A stretch of 64,000 nt of DNA from Liolophura sinensis (taxonomy: Eukaryota > Mollusca > Polyplacophora > Chitonida > Chitonidae), in assembly GCF_032854445.1 (NCBI RefSeq), contig NC_088298.1:14001504-14065503 (forward strand), read 5' to 3'. The translations under genes were made by a program, and so were the position numbers. Under the pieces are notes generated by a model. That model was not told the DNA's origin. It saw only the letters and a list, made by a program, of their open reading frames with translations, and searched no databases. Within the stretch, counting starts at the first letter, position 1. The number at the start of each line of letters is the position of its first letter. Shown here in pieces: positions 6,001 to 46,836 of this stretch.

Positions 6001-9000
6001 CACCACACACAGGATACCAATTACCACCATCATATAACAGAAAACTCTTGAGTATGGCAATGAAACAACCATCAAAAAAATGAATAAAATTTGGTGAAGA
6101 TCTGCCCATTATAGTTCTGAACATGGTTTGTGTGGATAACAAATGCGGGACAGCACAAACACGATATCATATGTCTATTGAGGAATTAAGTGACAAAATC
6201 TTCTGAGCAACTCGTTTGAGCACAGTACATAAATCGTGCAATGCACAACTGTGGCATCAAAAAGAAAGGAGTAATAAAATAGACACTCACTTTTCTACAT
6301 TTGGATAGAGCTCAGCAAGATTGGTCAATTCCATGAAGTGAGTTACAAAGAATGTAAATGCCTGAAAAGGAAAAAAAAATTATAACTGCCATTTTAAAAT
6401 ATCAACCAATTATTCAAGCATTACATTTGTTGTAGTCTCATCTTCTAATAATGGTCTATTCATAATAAATTCCCTGCTAAAGACTTAAGCAAGATTGATA
6501 CTGACTATAAAATCTGTTATGAATGTTCAGTAACAGACAATTAAGGTCAGAGCACATAATATACATTTACCATCTGTAAATGACCTAAAATTTTCTTCAA
6601 GACTAAGCTCTTGCGCTGGTTCAGAGAGTTCTGGTTTTTGAAGTATGAATGAAGGTAAGATGATATCCTACAGGAAAAATGTAAGTTCAAACACCAAAAA
6701 CTAATATTCTCTGACAATTATTCGCAGTTGAAAAATCACTTTTGGGGGGCCAAATTTTAGGTCATTTTTCAGTTCATATGTCCTTTGGATGAAGCTGATA
6801 GTTTCACAGGACAGGAGAAATAATTATATCTAAGGTGTACTAATTTCATGTACACTGATCAATATTAGTATAATAATATCTCTGTTTATTAACCGAAACA
6901 CAGTCAATTTAGAAAAACACCTTATGTGTTTTCTTGAACAAAAGCAATAAAATCTTGGTGCGAGTGCTGAAGATTTTATTTGGTCAGATTTTGTGACCTC
7001 TTCACACATACACTACTGCTATAATGACTAGCACAAATCCGCTTTAAATACGTTGAGGTTCATGAGGCACTGATATCACCAGTAATTCCTCTATGCAAAC
7101 CTCCTATATGTACCTTGACGTTCATGAGGCACCGATATCACCAGAAAGTCCTGTATGCCAACCTTCTTTAGATATGTTGAGGTTCATGAGGCATTGATAT
7201 CACCAGCAAATCCTCTATGCAAGCCTACTATACGCACCTTGAGGTTCATGGGGCATTGATATCACCAGCAAATCCTCTATGCATGCCTACTATATGTACG
7301 TTGAGGTTCATGATGCACTGATATCACCAGCAAATCCTCTATGCAAACCTACCATACATACGTTGAGGTTCATGAGGCAATGACATCACTAGAAAATCCT
7401 CTATGCAAACCTTCTTTACGTACGTTGAGGTTCATGAAAGACTGATATCACCAGCAAATCCTCTATGTAAACCTTCTACACGTACCTTGAGGTTCATGAG
7501 GCATTGATATCACCAGCAAATCTTATATGCAACCCTTCTATATGTACCTTGAGGTTCATGAGGCATTGATATCACCAGCAAATCTTATATGCAACCCTTC
7601 TATATGTACCTTGAGGTTCATGAGGCATTGATATCACCAGCAAATCCTCTATGCAAACCTTCTATACGTATGCTGAGGTTCATAATGCATTGATATCACC
7701 AGCAAATCTTATATGCAACCCTTCTATATGTACCTTGAGGTTCATGAGGCATTGATATCACCAGCAAATCCTCTATGCAAACCTTCTATACGTATGCTGA
7801 GGTTCTTAATGCATTGATATCACCAGCAAATCTTATATGCAAGGGGGCCTCCGTGGCTCAGTCGGTTAAAGCGCTAGCGCAGCGTAATGACCCAGGAGTC
7901 TCTCACCAATGCGGTCGCTGTGAGTTCAAGTCCAGCTCATGCTGGCGGCCGTACGTGAGAAGGTCTGCCAGCAACCTGCGGATGGTCGTGGGTTTCCCCC
8001 TGGCTCTGCCCGGTTTCCACCCACCATAATGCTGGCCGCCGTCGTATAAGTGAAATATTCTTGAGTACGGCGTAAAACACCAATCAAAAAAAAAAAAAAA
8101 AAAAAAAAATCTTATATGCAACCCTTCTATATGTACCTTGAGGTTCATGAGGCATTGATATCACCAGCAAATCCTCTATGCAAACCTTCTATCCGTATGC
8201 TGAGGTTCATGATGCATTGATATCACCAGCAAATCGTATATGCAAGCCTACTATACGTACCTTGAGGTTCATGAGGCATTGATATCACCAGCAAATCCTC
8301 TATACAAACCTTCTATACGTACCTGGAGGTTCATGAGGCATTGATATCACCAGCAAATCTTCTATACGCACCTTGAAGTTCATGAGGCATTGATATCACC
8401 GGCAAATCTTCTATGCAAATTTTCTATATGTACCTTGAAGTTCATGAGGCATTGATGTCATCAGCAAGTCCTCTATGCAAACCTTCTCTACATACGCTGA
8501 GGTTCATGAGGCACTGATATCACGAGCAAATCCGCTTTGCAAACCTTCTATGCGTATGCTGAGGTTCATGAGGCACCGATATCACTAGCAAGTCCTCTAT
8601 GCAAACCTACTATAAATACGTTGAAGCTCATGAAGTATTGATATCACCAGCAAATCTTATATGCAAACCTTCTATATGTACCTTGAGGTGCATGAGGCAT
8701 TGATATCACCAGCAAATCCTCTATGCAAACCTTCTATACGTACCTTGAGGTTCATGAGGCATTGATATCACCAGCTTACATGCTCTGTACAAATGTACTG
8801 TACGTACCTTGAGGTTGAGGAGATATTCACAAATAGCATGACATATTCCTACTGCTTCATCACAACTGGTTCCTAGAACAAAAAACATCACTGTACCTAA
8901 TACCATCAAAACTGTGAGAAATTCAAAGACAAGCTAACAAATAACATAACTTTTATAGTTTAACTGTTTCAGAAGATGCGTGGAAACATTTTTTTTCCCC

Positions 9001-12000: not shown

Positions 12001-15000
12001 AAAATCGGTGTGTATGAAAATCCATTACTGCTCTAAGTACCTGAACAGGAGTAATTTTGAAAATAATTGACCAATTACCATTAAACTTAAAAATGCAGAA
12101 GTTTAGGTAAGTTCAATACGTTTGGTAAGTTTCATCAAAATCGGCGCAAAAGTTTGAGAGGAGATATATGGACAAAATTGTGTCTATAGACAGACGGACA
12201 GACAGACAGATAGACAGGGTGAATCCATTTTTTATATCCTGGAGTAGACACTTCATACTGGTCTTACAGATCAGGCCTATCACTGAAGAATGGACAAAGT
12301 ACACATACAAGAAGCTAAACACTATGAGGGTGGGCATGTGATCAGAGCACACACCTCAAGGACGAATGTTGAGGCATTCGTCTCCGGATCATCATCTGTC
12401 CTAACTCGGGTAAAGATCTGGTCTGCAATGCGGAAGGACGCATAGTCAGCTGGTACAAAGGAACCAATCTGAGCCATGATCTGCAGCAGCGCCATCTGAC
12501 GGATGTACGTCGACTTTCCACTCTGTAACATTATGTTAGAAAAAGCATTTTCACAAAGGGTTACATGAAGGATCTTTTCACCTAAAATATGTAATGTCAC
12601 ACTAGCCACAATGGACACACAACACAACACTGGACACACAATGCCACACTGGACACACAACACAACACTGGACACACATGCCACACTGGACACACAATGC
12701 CACACTGGACACACAACACAACAATGGACACACAACACAACACTGGACACACAACACAACACTGGGCTCACAATGCCACACTGGACACACAATGCCACAC
12801 TGGACACACAACACAACACTGGACACACAATGCCACACTGGACACACAATGCCACACTGGACACACAATGCCACACTGGACACACAACACAACACTGGAC
12901 ACACAATGCCACACTGGACACATAATGCCACACTGGACACACAATGCCACACTGGACACACAATGCCACACTGAACATACAACGCAACACTGGACACACA
13001 ATGCCACACTGGATACACAAGGATATACAAAATTTCAAGCGTTTTCTGAGCTACATGTATGTACGGTATATAAATAATTACCATGTTGGGTCCAGTGAGT
13101 ATTAGGAAATTACTGTCCTGAGAGGCATACTGAAATGTAAATAGAAAAAACAAATAAACAAACAAGAAAAATTAGAATGTGTCACCAACAGCGATGCCCT
13201 GTTCAACAAGAAAGTTGAATCAGTACAGGACCAATCTTCTTGGAGTCTCTCACACTTTCATGTAAATATACAATCTCACTCCTCATTCAAATCAGACACG
13301 CTATATATATATGTTTACAGTGATCAGTGATCTTGCTTGAATGAGTCCACCTAAACGCATACACGCTTGGCTTTTAGACACTGATGAGCACTGCTGGCTT
13401 ATACACATGTACGGTTATGATGTGATGGAAAGAATGCTGAAAGCAATGTCACACACCCCAAAACCTTTACTATACAAATATAGCTTTGATGAAGAGGTTT
13501 GCGATTCCATGAACACAAAGTTGTTGTATGTACTGGTGAGTCTTACCGTGTTGTTAGGTACTGGTGGCTCATCAAGGATCTTGTCCAGGATAGGATGCCG
13601 ACCTTGTTTGATGGCCATTGTGTCCGTGAACTCTGGCCTCACTACAATAATAAACCAATATAAGACTTATCAATCCGTAAGCTGAAGTAAACTGTTACCA
13701 TATTAAATGAGCCAGAAAAGAGAACAGTGAGTAATAGCTAATATCACCTCAAGAATTTATTGCTCACCATACTTAAGAATTTATCACTTTCACATTGATA
13801 GTCAGTTTCATGGGTGGAGGAAACCATGTGCCCTGGGAAAACAACTGACCTCTGACATGTAACTGATGCACATAAACCAGAGAGCCAAAAAACACCAACC
13901 ATTGGCTCGTTATTGATGAACTTTCCCACATGTAAAGCACAGATATGCACGCCATGTTAGTGAAGACAAAAGGTTTTCAACAAACCAAAGCTCCACAGGC
14001 AGTAAGAAAAAAGGAATCTAAAAATTCCCAGTTCTAATCTGGCTTAAACCTGTACCTTGTGTGTTCCAGCAATTGAAAGGCAAACCCTTCTAAGCATTAG
14101 AACATGGCCCGCTAACTAGTGATTTAGTAAATTAAGGGGACAAGTTTTATCTTAATAGAGATACATAGGGCCTACATGTGTTATGGCCTGACTGTTCACA
14201 TTGACAGACAGGTGCACTTCCAGTCAGACAGATAAAAACCTTGTTCAATGGTAAATATACTGATCTAGTTTGGAAATGTGCCCGTGTGGGCATAGGATAC
14301 AAGGATGTTTAAGACAGATATGAGGTGTATACATGTACTAACCATAGTTTGACAGTGTGCAGGCATGGGCAAAGGAGACAAGAGTGTCAAGGGCAGATAT
14401 GAGCTCATCAGGTGTATACATGTACTAACCATAGTTTGACAGTGTGCAGGCATGGGCAAAGGAGACAAGAGTGTCTAGGACAGATATAAGCTCATCAGGT
14501 GTATACATGTACTAACCATAGTTTGAGAGTGTGCAGGCCAGGGCAAAGGAGACAAGAGTGTCTAGGACAGATATGAGCTCATCAGGTGTATACATGTACT
14601 AACTATAGTTTGAGAGTGTGCAACCATGGGCAAAGGAGACAAGAGTGTCAAGGGCAGATATGAGCTCATCAGGTGTACACATGTACTAACCATAGTTTGA
14701 GAGTGTCAAGGGCAGATATGAGCTCATCAGGTGTATACATGTACTAACCATAGTTTGACAGTGTGCAGGCATGGGCAAAGGAGACAAGAATGTCTAGGAC
14801 AGATATAAGCTCATTAGGTGTATACATGTACTAACCATAGTTTGACAGTGTGCAGGCATGGGCAAAGGAGACAAGAGTGTCTAGGACAGATATGAGCTCA
14901 TCAGGTGTATACATGTACTAACCATAGTTTGACAGTGTGCAGGCATGGGCAAAGGAGACAAGAGTGTCTAGGACAGATATAAGCTCATCAGGTGTATACA

Positions 15001-18000
15001 TGTACTAACCATAGTTTGACAGTGTGCAGGCATGGGCAAAGGAGACAAGAGTGTCTAGGACAGATATAAGCTCATCAGGTGTATACATGTACTAACCATA
15101 GTTTGAGAGTGTGCAGGCCACGGCAAAAGAGACAAGAGTGTCTAGGACAGATATGAGCTCATCAGGTGTATACATGTACTAACTATAGTTTGAGAGTGTG
15201 CAGGCCAGGGCAAAGGAGACAAGAGTGTCTAGGACAGATATGAGCTCATCAGGTGTATACATGTACTAACCATAGTTTGAGAGTGTGCAGGCCACGGCAA
15301 AAGAGACAAGAGTGTCTAGGACAGATATGAGCTCATCAGGTGTATACATGTACTAACCATAGTTTGACAGTGTGCAGGCCAGGGCAAAGGAGATAAATGT
15401 GTCTAGGACAGATATGAGCTCATCAGGTGTATACATGTACTAACCATAGTTTGACAGTGTGCAGGCATGGGCAAAGGAGACAAGAATGTCTAGGACAGAT
15501 ATAAGCTCATTAGGTGTATACATGTACTAACCATAGTTTGAGAGTGTCAAGGGCAGATATGAGCTCATCAGGTGTATACATGTACTAACCATAGTTTGAC
15601 AGTGTGCAGGCCAGGGCAAAGGAGACAAGAGTGTCTAGGACAGATATGAGCTCATCAGGTGTGTACATGTACTAACCATAGTTTGAGAGTGTCAAGGGCA
15701 GATTTGAGCTCATCAGGTGTATACATGTACTAACCATAGTTTGGGAGTGTGCAGGCCAGGGCAAAGGTGACAAGAGTGTCTAGGACAGATATGAGCTCAT
15801 CAGGTGTGTACATGTACTAACCATAGTTTGACAGTGTGCAGGCCAGGGCAAAGGTGACAAGAGTGTCCAGGACAGATTTGAGCTCATCAGGTGTATACAT
15901 GTACTAACCATAGTTTGGGAGTGTGCAGGCCAGGGCAAAGGTGACAAGAGTGTCTAGGACAGATATGAGCTCATCAGGTGTGTACATGTACTAACTATAG
16001 TTTGAGAGTGTCAAGGGCAGATATGAGCTCATCGGGTGTATACATGTACTAACCATAGTTTGAGAGTGTGCAGGCATGGGCAAAGGAGACCAGAGTGTCC
16101 AGGACAGATACAGCCTCTGTCAGCTTGTACAGACATCCCACATCGTCTCTTATATCACTCAGCAACCTTGTGACCACACTGCAGATAATAACATGCATTT
16201 AAAACTACAACATATGCGAATAAAATCTTGCCTGACAGCAAAGTACAGTAATCATGAACATCATCTGCTGCTCATAATTTTGTAACGTCAATTTAAAACT
16301 GATAATCACTGATGAACCAGAATTACAACATTCATTTTTTTTTTTGGAAAGGTGTCAAAAATGGTTTAAAGTATCAAATGTGACATCATCAGCTCTTTAC
16401 ACAGTTCTAATCTCTACATATACTATAAACCAACACATAATTAATACAAGATTACTGACAGAAAATATGTCACCGGCCAAGTATCTTCAACACAGCAAAA
16501 TTGCAAATACCCTAACTTTTCAACCGCCTCTACAACCAATATTTTGAAACATTCTGAGAGAGCCATGGGTGTAGAGAACTATTTTGCAGAATTTTATAAA
16601 GTTTGCATCTTTAGTGACACAAAACTGAAGATCATTTCAGCATCAATTTGATAATAATTATATTCTTACATTTCACACAATAAAAGTGCTTTGTTGGTTG
16701 AAAAGTTTGAACATTTACAGTAACTGTGTTAAATTTATTAGTAGATTACTACATTGTAAGCTTACATAAGAACCTTTATCATCATAGAAACTTCACAGTT
16801 AAATTTAACAAATTCTTGCCTAAAAAAATTTCAGTGTGCCAGAAAAGATCTGAAACTGACACAAACTGACCGAACAGGAACAACTCCACCAGCCCAAGAG
16901 GTATTTTGTATTTTATCTTGAGCATCTTCCACAAAGGCATAATGTCAATAATTCTTTACCTGTGACTTTGTGACTTTTCATTTGAAGATAATGGCATACA
17001 AATAACCAACAACTAAAATGATTATTTTTCCTTAACTGTAACGGTGTATCTACATATATGTAGATGCATATACGATGGAGTTTGTGGAATTTCTTCATAA
17101 ACCAAAGACTATACATGGCTTTTTCTTTTAAGTCAATTATTGCCACATCTGTGATTACTTACACGTTAGTCATCAGGTAGATTTCTCGCAAAGACTCCTT
17201 GGCTCGATCTATAAAAATCACCATAATATGAATACATTGACATTTGTGGTGTCACTCCATACTTCTCTCGTTTTTTAGCAATCGTAAGTTAATACCAGAG
17301 CTACTGACCATATCCTACATTCAGTGATGGTGGAAACAGCCCCTAAACAAGCTGGCGTACAGATTATTTAAATTATTTCAAGTGCATATTTGCAATACTC
17401 GCAACATTCACAAAAAGTCGATGTCATCATCAAATGAATGGCTTATGTTGAAAGATGAGGATAATGATGTCAAAAATATCACTTAACGACCAACAAGAAA
17501 GAGTCATTTAGATATACATGTATAAAGAAAGAAGAGCATTTTGGGCAATGCTTCTAGTTAGGCCTGCTGCAGGTTGTATATTAAGATCCAGTAGTCAGTG
17601 AGTGCGGAACAATCCTTAACCATATTTATTCCCTGACTTTGTCTACAGAAGAAACGATTTATTACAATGATATTCTACTCACCATTTAATCTAATCTGTG
17701 TGAAAACAAATAAACAGGCAAACATTATTATGGGTGGAAAGACATGTGAATTAACATCAAAACTTTCTTCCCAATTATGGACCACACATCATGGCAAAAC
17801 AACTTTTATTATTAAATCATTCAGACTCAGAATGTATGAATGTTTGATACGACATGAAAAGGTAAGAATTTATTTATTTATTTATTGATTTGATTGGTGC
17901 TTTATGCTGTACGCTATGTAAAAATATATATGCATGACTCCATGATCAAGTCTGTGTTATAATGACGTATGCAGATAAGCTGATTTGAATATTCCAGTAT

Positions 18001-21000
18001 ACATGTATACAGGTTGGTTGGTGCATTTGGATGCATCAGTTATGCCCATCATGTACAATGACATGAACTGGTGGCACAAAGCTTTTTAACCAAATAATAA
18101 AACCTGCCAAACAATGTTTAAAGGTTTATAACAAACACAAAGGGAATGTCTATGTAGTATTCAAATTAGTGATCAAATTGCTACAATCACAGATAAACAC
18201 ATGCAAACCTGCATCAAGCCTCAAAAGTTTAAAATTATTCTGAAGGCTGAAGATTGCAAAAACTGATGTAAGTTTAGGTGTACAGATTTCAATGATCACA
18301 GGTTATTTAAACACTCACCATGTCTGATGTTGTGAAGCTGAGTGTGTTCCGATGCTTGACCTTCTTGATGAAGATTCCTGGCAGATCATCAGCCGAGTAG
18401 GGATTTTTACCTCCACAGTTCAGCTGCAAGAAGAACCCACGACAGGAATTGTAGCCGGTCTTCAGAGGGAGGTTGAACTTCTCACCCAACTGTTTGGTAA
18501 TCTCTGCAACCAGATCAAGATAAAACTTGTAACTCAAACCTGTATCTGGAAATTGCTCTCAAATATATAAAGCCTTAACATGCACAGCTGTCCTACAGGT
18601 CCCCAGGGCTGTCTTATAGAACACCAGGGCTGTCCTAAAGACACCATGCTGTCCTATAGAACCCAGGGCTGTAGAACAGTTTTGTAGAACTTTTGGAACA
18701 GTAGAATCTCTCTGTCTATAACAATTCCATAGAACAATTTTTATTAGGTTATGAGACACCGCAGGCATCGAGTCCAGTGTGTATTTCCAAGACAACATGG
18801 ACTAGGTGTTCTATATATCCCCAAGGCTGTCTTATAGAACACCAGGGATGACCTATAGAACACAGGGCTGACCTATAGAACACCAGGGCTGACCTATAGA
18901 ACACCAGGTCTGACCTTTTGGAACAGTAGAATCCGTGTGTCTATAACCATTCTATTTTATCAGGTTATGATACACCGCAAGCGTCAAGTCCAGTGTGTAT
19001 TTCCAAGACAACATGGACAAGGTGTTCTATATATCCCCAAGGCTGTCTTATAGAACCCCAGGGATGACCTATAGAACACCAGGTCTGACCCATAGAACAC
19101 CAGGTCTGACCTATAGAACCGCATGCTGTCCTATAATAGAACTTTTGGCACCGTACAACCTGTCTTGATATAGGAATTCTATAAACCAATTTTATCAGGT
19201 TATTGTGAGTCCAATGTGCATTTCCAAGACAACACGGATGAGGTGTCCTACAGATCCCCAGGGCTGTCTTACAGAACACCAGGGCTGTCCTAAAGACCAA
19301 ATGCTGTCCTATAGAACCCAGGGCTGTCCTACACAGCTCCAGGGCTGTTCTGTAGAACTTCTGGAACAGTAGAATCTGTCTGTCTATAACAATTCTATTT
19401 TATTAGGTTATGAGACACTGCAGGGGTCAAGTCCAATGCATACTTGTACATCTAATAACATTTTTCCAGTATTAACATACGTGTACATATACTGATTATT
19501 CCCCTTCTGAAAAAAAAAATGACGTGAGACCTGGATTCTCTGCGTGCATGTTACACTATATGTCCCTGAAAACAGTTCTGACCTAATTGAGATTTCTGAA
19601 ATGTCCTCTACATGTACTTCTGAAAATGCATATAAGCAAATAAAAAGATATCGTGGAAAATCGTTGACAGTTAAGCTGTTTTAAAAGCATCTGAGAAGGG
19701 GTCCATGTACTAATACTCCGGACTAACAAAAGAAGAATGACACCTAAACAATGAGCGAGTTGTAGGGTTTCAAATCCTGTAAATACCTTCAAGGTCAAGA
19801 AATATGATACAATCAAGAAGGAAACATAGCCCTATGTATACAGCCATACACATAATCCGTTTATCACACTGGCAAACACCTGATCATTAGATGGGTACCA
19901 TTTGAGTGAAGGTTGGTACAACTTGACTGGAGTTGCATGGGTACAACTTAATCAGGTTACAAGTTTGCATGTGGGAACGCGTTGCTCTTTATTCTCTTCG
20001 GCTGATACGATTACTTCTTAAAGGTACAATCTTAACAGATACCTGCTATGTCATCCACAATCTCTGTGTACGCTCTCCGGGCGATGTCTAGCAAACCTGA
20101 AACACAAGGTGCAGTTAGAGGTGAACAGTTTTGTCTTTACAAACAAAATTTGGTGTAGGCTCTTTGGGCGATGTCTAACAAACCTGAAACACAAACAGTT
20201 TTGTCTTTAAAAACAAAATCTGACACAATTCAACTCAAAAACTTAATTTTTGAAGTTGGTATAAAGGCTGGATATGTCACCACGTTATCATGTTCATGTT
20301 AAATAAGGACTTATGAAGTAGTAATCTGTTTCTTTTTTTTTTTATCGTGAGAAGAAGACAACAATTTGCTAACATTCGAAAACAGCAATTCAAATATTAT
20401 TTCTGAATAAATAAAATTAAAAAAAAACATGCAGGTATATACAGACACACATAAACATAAATTTAAATTAAATTAAATTAAAAAACAACATGCTGCAGGT
20501 ATATATAGACACACATAAACATAAATCGTCGTCATATGACTGAAAAATTGTTGAGTACGACGTTAAACCCCAAGCACTCACTCACTCACTCATAAACATA
20601 AATAATGCATTTTTAAATCTTAGTAACAATATTTAAAATCTTAACAACATAAATAAACACTGAATCAAAAAGCAAAGAACATTCTCATTCTCACCATTAA
20701 TGTTTGGCTGAAATTAAGAGAAGAAATCCATGAAATGCAACACTTAATAAATAAACATCTATTTAATTTTTATCGTTGTTTAACACCATACTGGTAAGTT
20801 CTTTACTTGGCCGTCTGTTTTCTTGGTGGAGGAAATTGAACAGTCAAGATTTAACCGCTGACTCATGAACTTTTCCAAGTGTGCTATACAGTCTTGTATT
20901 TTATATTAGTGGCAGACAAGTGATCTTACACAGAAGATTGTGCAAATGGATCAGTACAAATACCTCAGGCCACTTACACCGGCCCGGATAGCACAGTTGG

Positions 21001-30000: not shown

Positions 30001-33000
30001 GCCCATGTGGTGGCTGAATCAGTCAGAAATTATCAAGCAAAATGTGCCCTTCCAAAAAAAAAGTAAACTTTAGGTGAAACACAGTGCTTACTTCTATGGG
30101 ATTGTACAGTTGTAGCTTAGTCACAGCTTTCACATAGGTGACTGTGTCACAGAACTGAGACAGAACCAATACTGGGCTCCTTAGGTCAATACAAGCCATG
30201 CCGACTTCCCCTCGAGCCTGGCCACGCCCCTCCGTCAACGCTGTAACAACAATATTACACATCAATACATTTCTCAGATTTCTCAACTGTCTTACACAAC
30301 TGGAAAAGCCAAACATTATGATATAAAAACGTATGTGTGGTAAATGACCTACAAGTTTGCCCCTCAAAATATTAATGTCATAAAATATTAACTACTTTGT
30401 TGCAAACAGGTTTCCAGTAGGACATCATCCTGTCTGTCAACAAACTTCAAAACTCCTATTCTCTGAGAAAAATTCACACGGTCATAAAGTGTCAAAATTT
30501 CAGGTCGTTTTTACTCCAAGTGAATGGAACACATGTACAGTAATGAACATGTATGGTACACATGTACAGTTATGAACATGTATGGTACATATGTACAGTT
30601 ATGAACATGTATGGTACATATGTACAGTTATGAACATGTATGGTACATATGTACAGTAATGAACATGTATGGTACATATGTACAGTAATGAACATGTATG
30701 GTACATATGTACAGTAATGAACATGTATGGTACATATGTACAGTAATGAACATGTATGGTACACATGTACAGTAATGAACACCTATGTGCATGTAGGTTC
30801 AGAGAACAATGGTAGCCAGTTGAATATTCTCATAAATTTAACCAAAATCCAACTAATCTTTCTTACACTGTGTACATTTATACTGACATTAATTATCAAA
30901 TAATGGCCACAAAGACTTAAATTTGCTCTTTATATTTCACCCACCAACAATGACAGAAGACTCTTCTTCAGGAGTAGAAGAGCTGGAGTTGTATGGGGTC
31001 TCACTTGACGCCGAGGTTCCAGCTTGGGCATACCCTGGCGTTCCACCTCGGGCAGGCCCATGAGTATTGGCCCGGGAAGACCCTGGGGTCCTGGCTTGGG
31101 CAGAACCTGTGGTATTTCTTGGGGTGTTCACACCCAATGACGTGGAACTGCCCCTTGATCTGGGTTCTACACTATGGTGAAGGAATATTAAAGGGCAAAT
31201 GGTAATAAAAGTCATTAAGTTACCCATATGCTTCTACACTGTTTGTATAATAATAAAATCACACCTGACAGAGCAGATTTCAAAATGTAACAGTCAGTCA
31301 TAATGTCTCGTATTTCAAGTCTGAACAATAGACATCAAAAAATCTGATAGTCTGTCTACTGTACTTTACTTTTTTCAATCACACTTAACATATAATTCAA
31401 AAATTGGCAACGACTAGAAGATGGAGTGATACATGTAAGTTCCCAGTTGAGCTTAAATCCTTAATTTAAACTTACTTCCAACAATATGAAGAATTGGCTT
31501 TGCTGTTAAAATCTGTACTTAACATGCAGGATAGCTTGTTAGTTATTTGCTAGTACAGGTTTGTTCTAGGTCCTACGGTTTCCCCCTCCAAGTAATATAA
31601 GTGCAATATTCAATCAGGCAATCAACCCATCATGACAACATACTCAGGAGTTTGATTTGAGCCTTGTTTGTCAAGAGCTAGCGAACTTCTGATGGTCGCC
31701 ACTGAGGAACCTGGTAATAGTAGTAACTCTGAAACTACTGTTTGTTTATTTGATTGGAGTCAAATATCCTTTTCAACATTATTTCAGTCACATTATGATT
31801 GTGTGTCCTTGTAGCAAACTGAACCTAATGATGACATATAGTGCTGCCTCACTGGAACACAATGATAAGACACGAGGCACGACACTCAAAAGAGTCACAA
31901 ACTATGCTGACACTAGGTCAACCAGTACTTATTTCTATTCATACTGATGTCTACAACAACTACTGTAAGTTCCCTCCTTAAAAGATGCTGTCTGTTCATC
32001 ACTGGTAACACCTTGACAAGTTGCTTCAGAGTATAGTTTTCAGCTACGTGTACATGCATAGTGACCCTGACCTGCTTGTACTAGATTTCCCAGGATACAG
32101 GCCCCTGGGGGTGGAGAATCTGTTACATGCAGGTGTGCCAGATCCTGTGAGAGGACCCCTACTTGTGATCAAGGCTGTGTTCGGGGTTTCCAGCAAGGAG
32201 AAGTCTGTGTGCAGGAAAGAAGAGATTATAAGAAAACAAAACGGGATTTCTTGAAGTTTTAATCGAATGTCTTTTTTTTTTTTTTTTGGAACACAATCAA
32301 GATGATTTCAAATGAACTAAATGGCTGTGGAAGAAGTTTCTGTGACACAAATCCTAGACAGAGAAAATGCAATTTTTGCCAAGCAAGAGAAGAATGGGTT
32401 GACTTTAACACCCTCACAGTTGACAAGGATGATGTGCATGAATCTGAGAAACACAGGTTGCCACAGATACAGCACAGGGGTTACTTTCACAAAACTTTGT
32501 ATATCAATTTTTGTAATTTTTCTCATAAATGATGATGCTTTATGGCACTATAACCTAGACAATGTCTTTTACAAAAAAAGTTATGAGAAATGTGACTTAC
32601 AAAGTTTTGTGAAAGTGGCCCACACTGGACGAAGTAAAACATAAATATTACCAGCACATGTTAGCGTGAGTTGATAACTATACCATGAAAGACATGGCAT
32701 GGTGCTTTACTTTTCACTGAAAACAGGTGTGATTATTGAATGTTAGTTCCTTACTTTTTCTCTATTATGGTTATAACTAAGAAATCCATCGCAGAGAGCT
32801 ACTGTATCTAATGTTGCCACCTTTGTTACCCATGCAGCTATACATGAAACTCTTTGGTTTTATTTCTTAATATGGATTAAAAAAAGGTGGCCTAAACTAA
32901 ACTGTAAAAAAAAAAAAAAAAAAATTCTCAGCTTTCTGTTTGGGGCCTAGCAATAAATCCCTGTATGTAAAATATGCATAACATAGAGCGCTTATCACGA

Positions 33001-44232: not shown

Positions 44233-46836
44233 TCAATTTTGTATATCGTCTGAACTGATGGTGAATTTTCGTAGACTGTCATCGTCAATGACAGGTGTGT
44301 CACGTGCGCTACGATGTTCTGTCGATTCTTTAGTGTCCATGTCTCCAAAATCATCTGCTACTGAATCGCGTCTGGAATTGGACCCTTCAGAGTCTATGCT
44401 CTCAAAACTTGTTGTTGACCAGTTCCTTGACTTCCTATACGTAAAAGTTGGCTCTAAAAACGGTCCTGGACTGTCTGCGTAAAATGCTGAGCTGCTCTGC
44501 CTTAAGTGTGGACTCTCTTCAAAGTCTGTGCTTTCAGCACTCGCAGAAGACACAGCCGATTGCCACTAGACAACGGCTGAGCTTCCGCTTCAAAACTTTC
44601 ACCGCTCGTTGCCGAGCACTTCCTGTTACCACCTTCTGATTCCACGCTGTCCACGCTCGAAACGGAACAGGTGCGTCCCGAATGTTCCTGTGAATCGGTC
44701 GTGTCTGTGCTGGACACAGAACTTTTGCGCACATTGGAGCTCTCACCTTCTGGCACTGCCAAGTATTTGCCACGCTTTGAGGAGCGCTTTAGATGAATAC
44801 GCATGTGCCTGGTGATCATGTCTCGGCGGCATGCAGCGTAAGGACACTGCGGGCACCTGTACGGTTTCTCACCTGTGTGAGTGCGCTGGTGAGTGTTGAG
44901 ATGGTCACTGCGACTAAACACCTGGCCGCAGACCCTGCACTCGTAGGGCTTCAGTCCCGTGTGCAGCCGCATGTGCCTCGTCAACATATCGCTGCGTGAA
45001 AACGCTCTATTGCACACTTTGCAGTAATGAACTTTGTTGTTGTCGGCTGTTTTGACAGTCTCTGTGGGTAAATGTTTTGCCATGTGTTTTGCCAAGTTGT
45101 CATACGACGGAAACACTTGTCCACACACAGGGCAAATGTAGGTCAGCTCTGAGCCTTGGGCATCGTCAGACTGGCGCTGGAATTCAGTGACAGGGGGAGG
45201 TGAACAGAAGAGCTTAGGCAGAGGCTTATTGGAAGAGACCTGGAACCTTGCAGGGCTGCCTGGGTACACCAGGCGAGGCGATTTTGGCATTCTTGCTGTG
45301 CTCTCCTCCCGACCCTAAATATGGCGATCGTGGCGGAAAAGTAAAATGTAACCCTGGTGAATCCGGGCTGAATCCAGGGGATAAAAACTCTGGGTCTGAA
45401 TGGCAGCGAGACTCAAACGGACTAGGTAAGTTAAATTGAACACTCGGCCCTCTGGGACTGACCAGAGTGGAGAACGTGGAGACATCATTTCATGCTGAGG
45501 CGAGTAGAACATTGGAGGGGAGTGATGGTACATTGAAGGCGACAGCTGTGTAGGAAAAAGGGGCAGGATTCCTCAGTTCCTCGTGACTGGCGAAAGTCGC
45601 AGACGGCATTTGCTTACTGCGGAGATCCAGAGGTTCCTCGTTCCTGCGACGTGCCTTCTGCGAGGATCCTACAGGAGCCTTTCTTCCTGGTTCTAGATAC
45701 TCAGTGGCCTCGAACACATCATCTTTAGTTTCAGTGCTTTCGTCTTCATCTGCCCTCCTTGATGACGATGGCTCAACATCACGTACATGAATAAAAACCT
45801 CTGAATGAAGAGACACGTCCCCTCGTCCTTCACTATCTGTACTTGAGAAACTCGGATTTTTGCGTTCAGACTCTGCCTTGACCAATTCCAGTCTTTTCTT
45901 CGGTGTACCTGGTACACATTCTGAGGGACCTCTTCACACTTTCAGGAGATCCCTCACATCAGTGTCCTTCAAACTTGATATGTATCGCTCCTGTAAATAC
46001 TTTTTAAAGCTTTTGGGGTAGGATGCTGCCTCCTTTTTCTCTGTATCGGCCACTGTCATGTAGCCTTTCTCCGCCTCCGTTTGTGACATCGATATGCACT
46101 CCGGAGGCGGAAACAGTTCTATGTTCCTGGAAGGCTCATCAAATGACATCTTGCTTTCCTGTTTTGACCAAGCCTCCATTTGATGCCTCCGTTCCTCAGA
46201 AGTCTGATACTGCTCCGTTTTATCTGATTCTTTGAGGTAAGAAGCACCATGTGTTGGAGACTTCCACAGATGGGGACGATAAAATGGAGACTGTTGTCTC
46301 GGCACAATGACCGGTTCGCGGTACTGCTGCGTTGAAGGCGTGTTGTGCATCTTCGGCGGAGGCGAGGGTCTCTCTGAAGGCGATACATCCACGAACGCCG
46401 GCGAACCACACAGCTGCTTTTGCTCGTGTTCTGATTGGCAGGCACTTGAGGAAGGCAGCTGCTTAGGGATGGGGTAGCAGACGCTGTGGGACGTGCTACT
46501 CTGCTGGATCACTTCCTGTTGATACTTCATCCAACCTTCCTGCTTCATCTTCAACCTTCTCACATGCACCTCCTCGTACTCTGTGTAAGATCGCACCGTC
46601 TTGGTCACATTTGTGGAATGTTCACCTACAGTTATCTCCCCTTGTTCGCACTCTGGGATCAGGGGCACCCGAGGCTCTGTCGGGGTTTGGGTGTACAGGT
46701 CAGACTCTTTTTCAGATTCGTACCCGGAGCTCTGTTTATCAGAAAGTCGCTGAAGCACGGCACTGATGTTCTTCCTGCGTTGTTCCTTCATTTCTGGTTC
46801 CTCGGCACTCTGTCCGAAGTTCCCCATCATGGACAT
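44233..46836 (-). pseudogene. C2H2 zinc-finger regulator, single large exon with broken frame
   Basis: The start ATG at 46836 has a strong context (gccaccATGt). Frame 46836-45934 (300 aa) is Ser/Glu/Gln-rich with a basic patch, then TGA. The same frame resumes at once (GPSECVPGTPKKRLELVKAE) and holds EEPLDLRSK, a CtBP-type motif (45619-45633). The frame then shifts near an A5 tract (about 45562), again at about 45450-45485 and about 45291-45315, reaches four C2H2 fingers (45140-44793), and shifts once more near 44553-44575. It ends in a Ser/Asp/Glu-rich tail with stop at 44233. C2H2 arrays of this kind bind DNA in the nucleus, and PLDL motifs recruit CtBP corepressor. MSH4 exons show no such errors, which favours true decay, but local sequence error is possible. 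The orthologue is not identified. Confidence 0.65.
44793..45140 (-). other. four C2H2 zinc fingers
   Basis: All four Cys2His2 sets are intact: finger 1 YICPVCGQVF..HMAKH, then a 15-residue spacer, finger 2 YCKVCNRAFSRSDMLTRHMR, finger 3 YECRVCGQVFSRSDHLNTHQ, finger 4 YRCPQCPYAACRRDMITRHM. Linkers 2-3 (HTGLKPY) and 3-4 (HTGEKPY) are canonical. RSDM, RSDHLNT and RRDMIT put defined residues at the DNA-contact positions. Fingers 2-4 look like one sequence-specific unit. Confidence 0.95.

Follow-up and report, generated by a model that had tools for sequence, protein, structure and literature searches.

Minisatellite-like repeats that lie across exon-intron boundaries have been described in amphioxus under the name of mirages, in the genes for Adh3, troponin C, and the globins BflGb6 and BflGb9, and PGBD5 of amphioxus has been likened to them; in the relevant passages of these reports, regular splicing is described as undisturbed by the repeats (PMC3087553, PMC3902484). 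A hypothetical mirage model of intron and exon gain has also been presented, in which the presence of a suitable acceptor lets a unit turn into an exon (PMC3087553, Figure 7 legend). In C. elegans, according to the abstracted part of one report, a minisatellite has been linked with multiple splicing decisions (PMC4039745). No mirage from a mollusc appeared among the matches listed from the open-licence PMC literature, and a word search of the main text of a comparative chiton-genome paper returned neither 'tandem repeat' nor 'satellite'. The array described here copies the donor edge of exon 15 of a Liolophura gene that is identified as MSH4 by its sequence.

The window, i.e., the whole stretch of 64,000 nucleotides that was analysed, carries this gene on its minus strand. 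With a human MSH4 query, matches were obtained at 17 exon pieces, the first at 30250 and the last at 2890, compared to one matching piece each for MSH2 and part of MSH6, and the profile models MutS_III and MutS_V both match the window on the minus strand. On the criterion of the best match among the MutS homologues tried (MSH4, MSH2, and part of MSH6; MSH3 and MSH5 were left out), the gene is MSH4. Some parts to be expected of MSH4 were not located or confirmed with this query, namely the N-terminus, residues 97-116 of the query, and short stretches close to exons 12 and 14 and to the 3' end. The name exon 15 follows the numbering of an initial annotation of the window. The genome searched comprises 609,464,459 bases in 632 contigs and holds a molluscan haemocyanin with eight functional units in a row; in this one assembly, the MSH4 array locus is present as one copy. 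An open frame of C2H2 zinc-finger type is also found in the window, at 44505-45314 on the minus strand.

The 3' end of exon 15 reads ...CAAACTATG/GTTAGT (also given as ...TCAAACTATG/GTTAGT; the slash denotes the splice site), and 21 more copies of this edge are placed directly after it. Between 16053 and 14342 there are 22 donors of the GTTAGT form, namely the real one and 21 copies, the copied GT being retained in 21 of 21 array units. The copied part consists of 56 nt from the exon end and 31 nt of the adjoining intron, donor included, in total 87 nt. The exon-edge array proposed in the initial annotation, with just such an 87-bp unit, was borne out by alignment, with the corrections that four of the 21 units are 58 nt long and that there is a decayed extra copy. 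These shorter units (1, 5, 7, and 17) are without 29 nt of the exon part and have TTG instead of the acceptor. The last 56 nt of exon 15 differ from the array consensus (unit columns 32-87) at five positions. Fifteen distinct sequences are present among the 21 units, with five identical sets (2 and 4; 7 and 17; 8 and 16; 10 and 12; 13, 14, and 20); the interior is thus homogenised, as judged by these sets, and the edge copy (14320-14252) is decayed. The array self-matches reach E=1e-57, and it is therefore not a product of chance. A whole-genome search with 262 bases of the array gave at least 11 matches, every one at the MSH4 locus. Intron 15 is 2,412 nt long and about 70% of it is array (14343-16053), while 24% of MSH4 between 2890 and 30250 is array. 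The features are collected in Table 1.

Table 1. Features of the MSH4 locus in window coordinates; a slash marks the exon-intron boundary.
Feature	Position	Strand	Remark
MSH4 exon 15, parent exon	16054..16178	-	its 56 nt next to the donor are copied in the array; acceptor TTATCTGCAG/T at 16178
Real exon 15 donor GT (ATG/GTTAGT)	16052..16053	-	
Array of 21 head-to-tail units	14343..16053	-	17 units of 87 nt, 4 of 58 nt; each ends with a copied donor
Candidate mini-exon, unit 2	15909..15953	-	earliest in the transcript, 100 nt past the real donor
Candidate mini-exon, unit 20	14430..14474	-	last of 14
Decayed extra copy, far end of array	about 14252..14320	-	71% identity by blast; donor and AG gone
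MSH4 exon 16	13547..13641	-	entry in phase 1 (G/TG AGG CCA GAG)
Second MSH4 donor-edge array	7049..8816	-	62-bp unit: up to 15 nt of exon end, donor, intron
Parent exon of second array	8808..8872	-	
Two-copy acceptor-edge duplication	20043..20183	-	exon of ~54 nt with upstream copy ~87 nt away; limits counted by hand

The acceptor column of the unit occurs in three states, TAG in 14 of 21 units, TTG in six, and TGG, the state of the exon itself, in one. All 14 TAG units (2, 4, 6, 8-16, 19, and 20) contain a 45-nt piece that ends at the GT donor, is open, and runs from phase 1 to phase 1, in accordance with the roughly 14 mini-exons of this length and phase that the initial annotation had put forward. 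Its 15-residue peptide holds in part, since all 14 pieces are open but only four (units 13, 14, 15, and 20) code for that exact spelling, and the CTGAT that it had placed before the AG is present in 12 of the 14, the other two having CTAAT. The possible intron between neighbouring 87-nt units is 42 nt, as had been stated; however, it is 100 nt for a TAG unit that follows a 58-nt one, including the stretch from the real donor to the acceptor of unit 2. On paper, introns of at least 90 nt allow a stop-free chain of up to nine candidate mini-exons. When exon 15 is read past its real donor, an in-frame stop is met immediately (TAT GGT TAG). The clamp-to-ATPase helix of the initial annotation was assessed by sequence: in an alignment, the exon 15/16 junction falls just after the ...NY that comes before the point where the ATPase part of MutS begins.

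With respect to the strength of the sites, 18 of the 21 copied donors are identical to the real one over the 9-base site (score 5.83), and the other three score 1.91. The TAG acceptors score 5.42-5.47, compared to 2.41 for the real acceptor of exon 16, and equal or exceed three to four of 11 real MSH4 acceptors. These scores come from crude matrices and from real sites picked out by eye; they cover 14 of 16 donor strings and 11 of 15 acceptor strings, with the donor at 8807 among those left out. Since the copied donors mostly match the real one and the acceptors score no lower than several real MSH4 acceptors, the copied donors and new acceptors look usable.

Variation among the units was examined for constraint on splice sites and frame. 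Of the 87 columns in the unit, 22 are variable. The initial annotation had asked whether the TAG and the donor are conserved more than the remainder of the unit, and the columns lend this no support: variable columns number 1 of 9 in the donor region versus 21 of 78 elsewhere (Fisher p 0.44), and 4 of 16 in the acceptor region versus 18 of 71 elsewhere (p 1.0). The coding piece is not more conserved than the intronic piece (14 of 45 versus 8 of 42 variable columns, p 0.22) and is more variable if anything, and the variable columns fall on codon positions 1, 2, and 3 in the numbers 6, 3, and 5, with no signal of coding constraint. The sole three-state column in the unit is the A of TAG (A14/T6/G1). 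The first 12 columns are invariant, with p 0.023 for a block that was chosen after seeing the data, whereas a run as long as the longest invariant one is not unusual (p 0.51). In addition, when single AG-creating changes are made in a parent-like unit, 12 of 28 yield an open in-phase exon, and 7 of 14 do so when a minimum of 12 nt is set for the exon and of 30 for the intron part. An in-phase length is thus expected about four times in ten, and the in-phase 45 nt could be ruled out as a sign of design.

Selection on the mini-exons accordingly gives no signal in column variability, codon position, or invariant runs, in a comparison whose power is low because there are only 22 variable columns in homogenised, and hence non-independent, units. 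At the same low power, splice sites and frame do not display the constraint beyond neighbouring columns that is expected of an alternative cassette exon. Use of the candidate mini-exons would be possible on paper and is unsupported. As a description of anatomy, the phrase 'exonisation potential or decoy sites' in the initial annotation is fair in view of the 18 donors and the acceptor scores, although no selection signal accompanies it. For the present, the mini-exons are best regarded as a side effect of a minisatellite process that often operates in this genome.

The initial annotation had treated the exon 15 array as special and had not related it to the amphioxus mirages; the view of it as special is not sustained, as exon-edge copies recur at other MSH4, MutS, and kinase exons. 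When the exon edges were compared with the window and a single criterion was then applied, edge copies were found at three of the 17 MSH4 exon pieces, i.e., exon 15, the exon at 8872-8808, and the exon near 20096-20043. In the second MSH4 array, GT is present in 18 of 22 aligned copies and AT in four; a looser scan that includes the real site gives five of 24 sites without GT. An alignment of copies yielded one aligned copy for the two-copy MSH4 exon and none for the kinase locus L045. In other MutS genes, an edge array is clear in one of 23 pieces. This is an acceptor array in a MutS-family gene on C8 (L004, C8:41748001-41757000, and the end of L003), where about 63-66 acceptor-edge units of ~78 nt stand before an exon and the frame through the MutS match is open for 918 aa. 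The AG is invariant in 66 units of the C8 array, but 40 of its 78 columns are invariant too, and a conserved acceptor was rejected as a signal there. An older, apparently frameshifted copy of the same exon start lies ~5.6 kb upstream on C8. The clear exon-edge cases in MutS genes are thus four in number.

Four other candidates in the MutS genes are unclear and did not stand as splice-edge arrays: C1b 4100 has only 11 nt of overlap and weak gapped similarity, C1a 6952 copies 27 nt of exon interior without a splice site, and C3 11582 is a 44-nt internal match away from the edge. At C1a 1218, a two-copy 32-bp acceptor duplication is visible by eye; it was missed by the common criterion and so was not counted. 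Around 6952-6600 of L007 (minus strand) there is an 18-bp intronic array, the unit of which resembles 27 nt inside the adjacent MSH2 exon and holds no splice site. The MSH2-matching pieces of L007 and those of L008-L011 (C1 93.97-94.05 Mb) have opposite orientation in two stretches ~40 kb apart, which could reflect either an inversion or a scaffolding error.

The frequency of exon-edge copies could be estimated from kinase exons, which were not chosen for arrays. Forty of 138 kinase matches were picked by eye for shortness, and four of these 40 short exon pieces have arrays that copy the exon edge together with the splice site (95% interval 3-24%), two at acceptors and two at donors (L045, L046, L055, and L062). 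Among the best-scoring 30 of the 138 matches, which are mostly long, exon-edge arrays were found in none (0/30); for long matches, the match ends need not be exon ends and the match was taken as the middle of the locus. The counts cover these 40 and 30 of the 138 matches, the other 68 being left out. Arrays come within 10 nt of a match end in four of 80 flanks (5%), compared to a mean array coverage of 7.2% in the 1-kb flanks, a rough comparison in that matches do not stop exactly where exons do. The figures do not support the idea that arrays are enriched at the edges of exons. Arrays seem to pay no heed to exon edges, and a particular tie to splice sites need not be assumed, because the 5% edge contact is close to the 7.2% flank coverage.

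The anatomy, the phase, the variation among units, and the recurrence of exon-edge copies elsewhere in the genome are observed. As to their origin, the array is very probably a neutral minisatellite that lies across the donor of MSH4 exon 15 and is spliced out whole. It would have been born by tandem duplication of an 87-nt stretch across the donor, comprising 56 nt of exon edge and 31 nt of intron start, after which unequal exchange or slippage would have raised the number of copies and homogenised them, with the 58-nt units arising from 87-nt units by a loss of 29 nt. The coding exon would remain single in this process, the extra copies lying within intron 15. A G-to-A change in one unit may have created the TAG, which turnover would then have carried to 14 of 21 units by neutral spread. 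The spliceosome would be expected to pair the first donor, that of exon 15, with the acceptor of exon 16 and to remove all that lies between. Identical units at separated places are as turnover predicts, and the decay of the far-end copy at both splice signals also counts for a neutral array; counted against it are the GT in 21 of 21 units, the 12 invariant columns at the start of the unit, and the open frame of all 14 mini-exons.

There are other ways to account for the same array. Some mini-exons might be spliced in appreciably, giving MSH4 isoforms with one or more extra blocks of 15 residues where the domain III helix meets the ATPase domain. Fourteen complete in-phase cassettes, donors that are for the most part the same as the real one, acceptors scoring above that of exon 16, and a stop-free chain of up to nine could all serve this end; however, the unit columns carry no sign of constraint, the scores are crude for the reasons given above, and most neighbours are separated by 42 nt, which is probably less than splicing requires. 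Moreover, the amphioxus mirages are reported as harmless to splicing in the relevant passages (PMC3087553, PMC3902484), and appreciable inclusion appears very improbable. The copied donors might instead act as decoys that lower MSH4 output, as splicing from a downstream donor, with the acceptor that belongs to it left unused, would retain the in-frame stop after the real donor and lead to truncated or decayed mRNA. The TAG met at once past the real donor and the real 9-base site shared by 18 of the 21 copies fit such an effect, but decoys that compete well would be costly in a meiotic gene and the presence of similar copies at other exons points to their being tolerated, which leaves a lowering of output by decoys improbable. 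Tandem arrays are error prone in assembly, and a simpler duplication could have been expanded artificially. This is hardly credible for the present array, in which 15 of the 21 units are distinct; in addition, the HiFi reads of the Liolophura assembly average 8,347 bp according to the sequencing details of its report (PMC11068029), a mean greater than the 1.7-kb array.

If the array is a neutral minisatellite, its main interest is that of a natural test, one of the way in which cells disregard decoy splice sites. Its recurrence, in four of 40 short kinase pieces and in the four clear MutS cases, makes one chiton genome a natural experiment in which a real donor or acceptor stands beside up to about 60 copies, and which could reveal how position, exon definition, and non-consensus sequence decide splicing. 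The same setting bears on how often satellites become exons. In the literature examined, mirages come from a few amphioxus genes, and the frequency of exon-edge copies in the chiton genome is the more interesting aspect. A wider proposal, to which we would give only a small chance, is that perhaps one internal exon in ten has a minisatellite of its own edge and that near-identical decoys are routinely rejected, while some arrays, such as the one with 14 cassettes in MSH4, find their way into mRNA; differences in array length and unit type would then produce heritable protein-length variation in a meiotic protein.

The array can finally be set beside the known systems. It consists of tandem units in a gene, which span an exon boundary with its splice signal and are homogenised inside with a decayed edge, and on this sequence evidence it is a member of the known mirage kind in a new phylum. 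As in the amphioxus mirages, insofar as the passages concerned describe them, tandem units span the boundary and copy a donor or an acceptor, many units have AG/GT signals, and concerted evolution acts within the cluster with the edge units excluded. The host is a chiton, a mollusc, rather than a cephalochordate, the copies are more numerous than the three to six units given for the amphioxus globin mirage, and, unlike in amphioxus, most MSH4 units have gained an acceptor of their own and thereby form complete in-phase cassettes. Ordinary intronic minisatellites or VNTRs are similarly head-to-tail, homogenised inside, and decayed at the edge copies, whereas the MSH4 unit holds 56 nt of coding exon and a splice site. 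In the mirage model of intron and exon gain, as its legend presents it (PMC3087553, Figure 7), a unit could likewise become an exon given a suitable acceptor; there it is a model only, whereas in MSH4 such candidate sites exist in the sequence.
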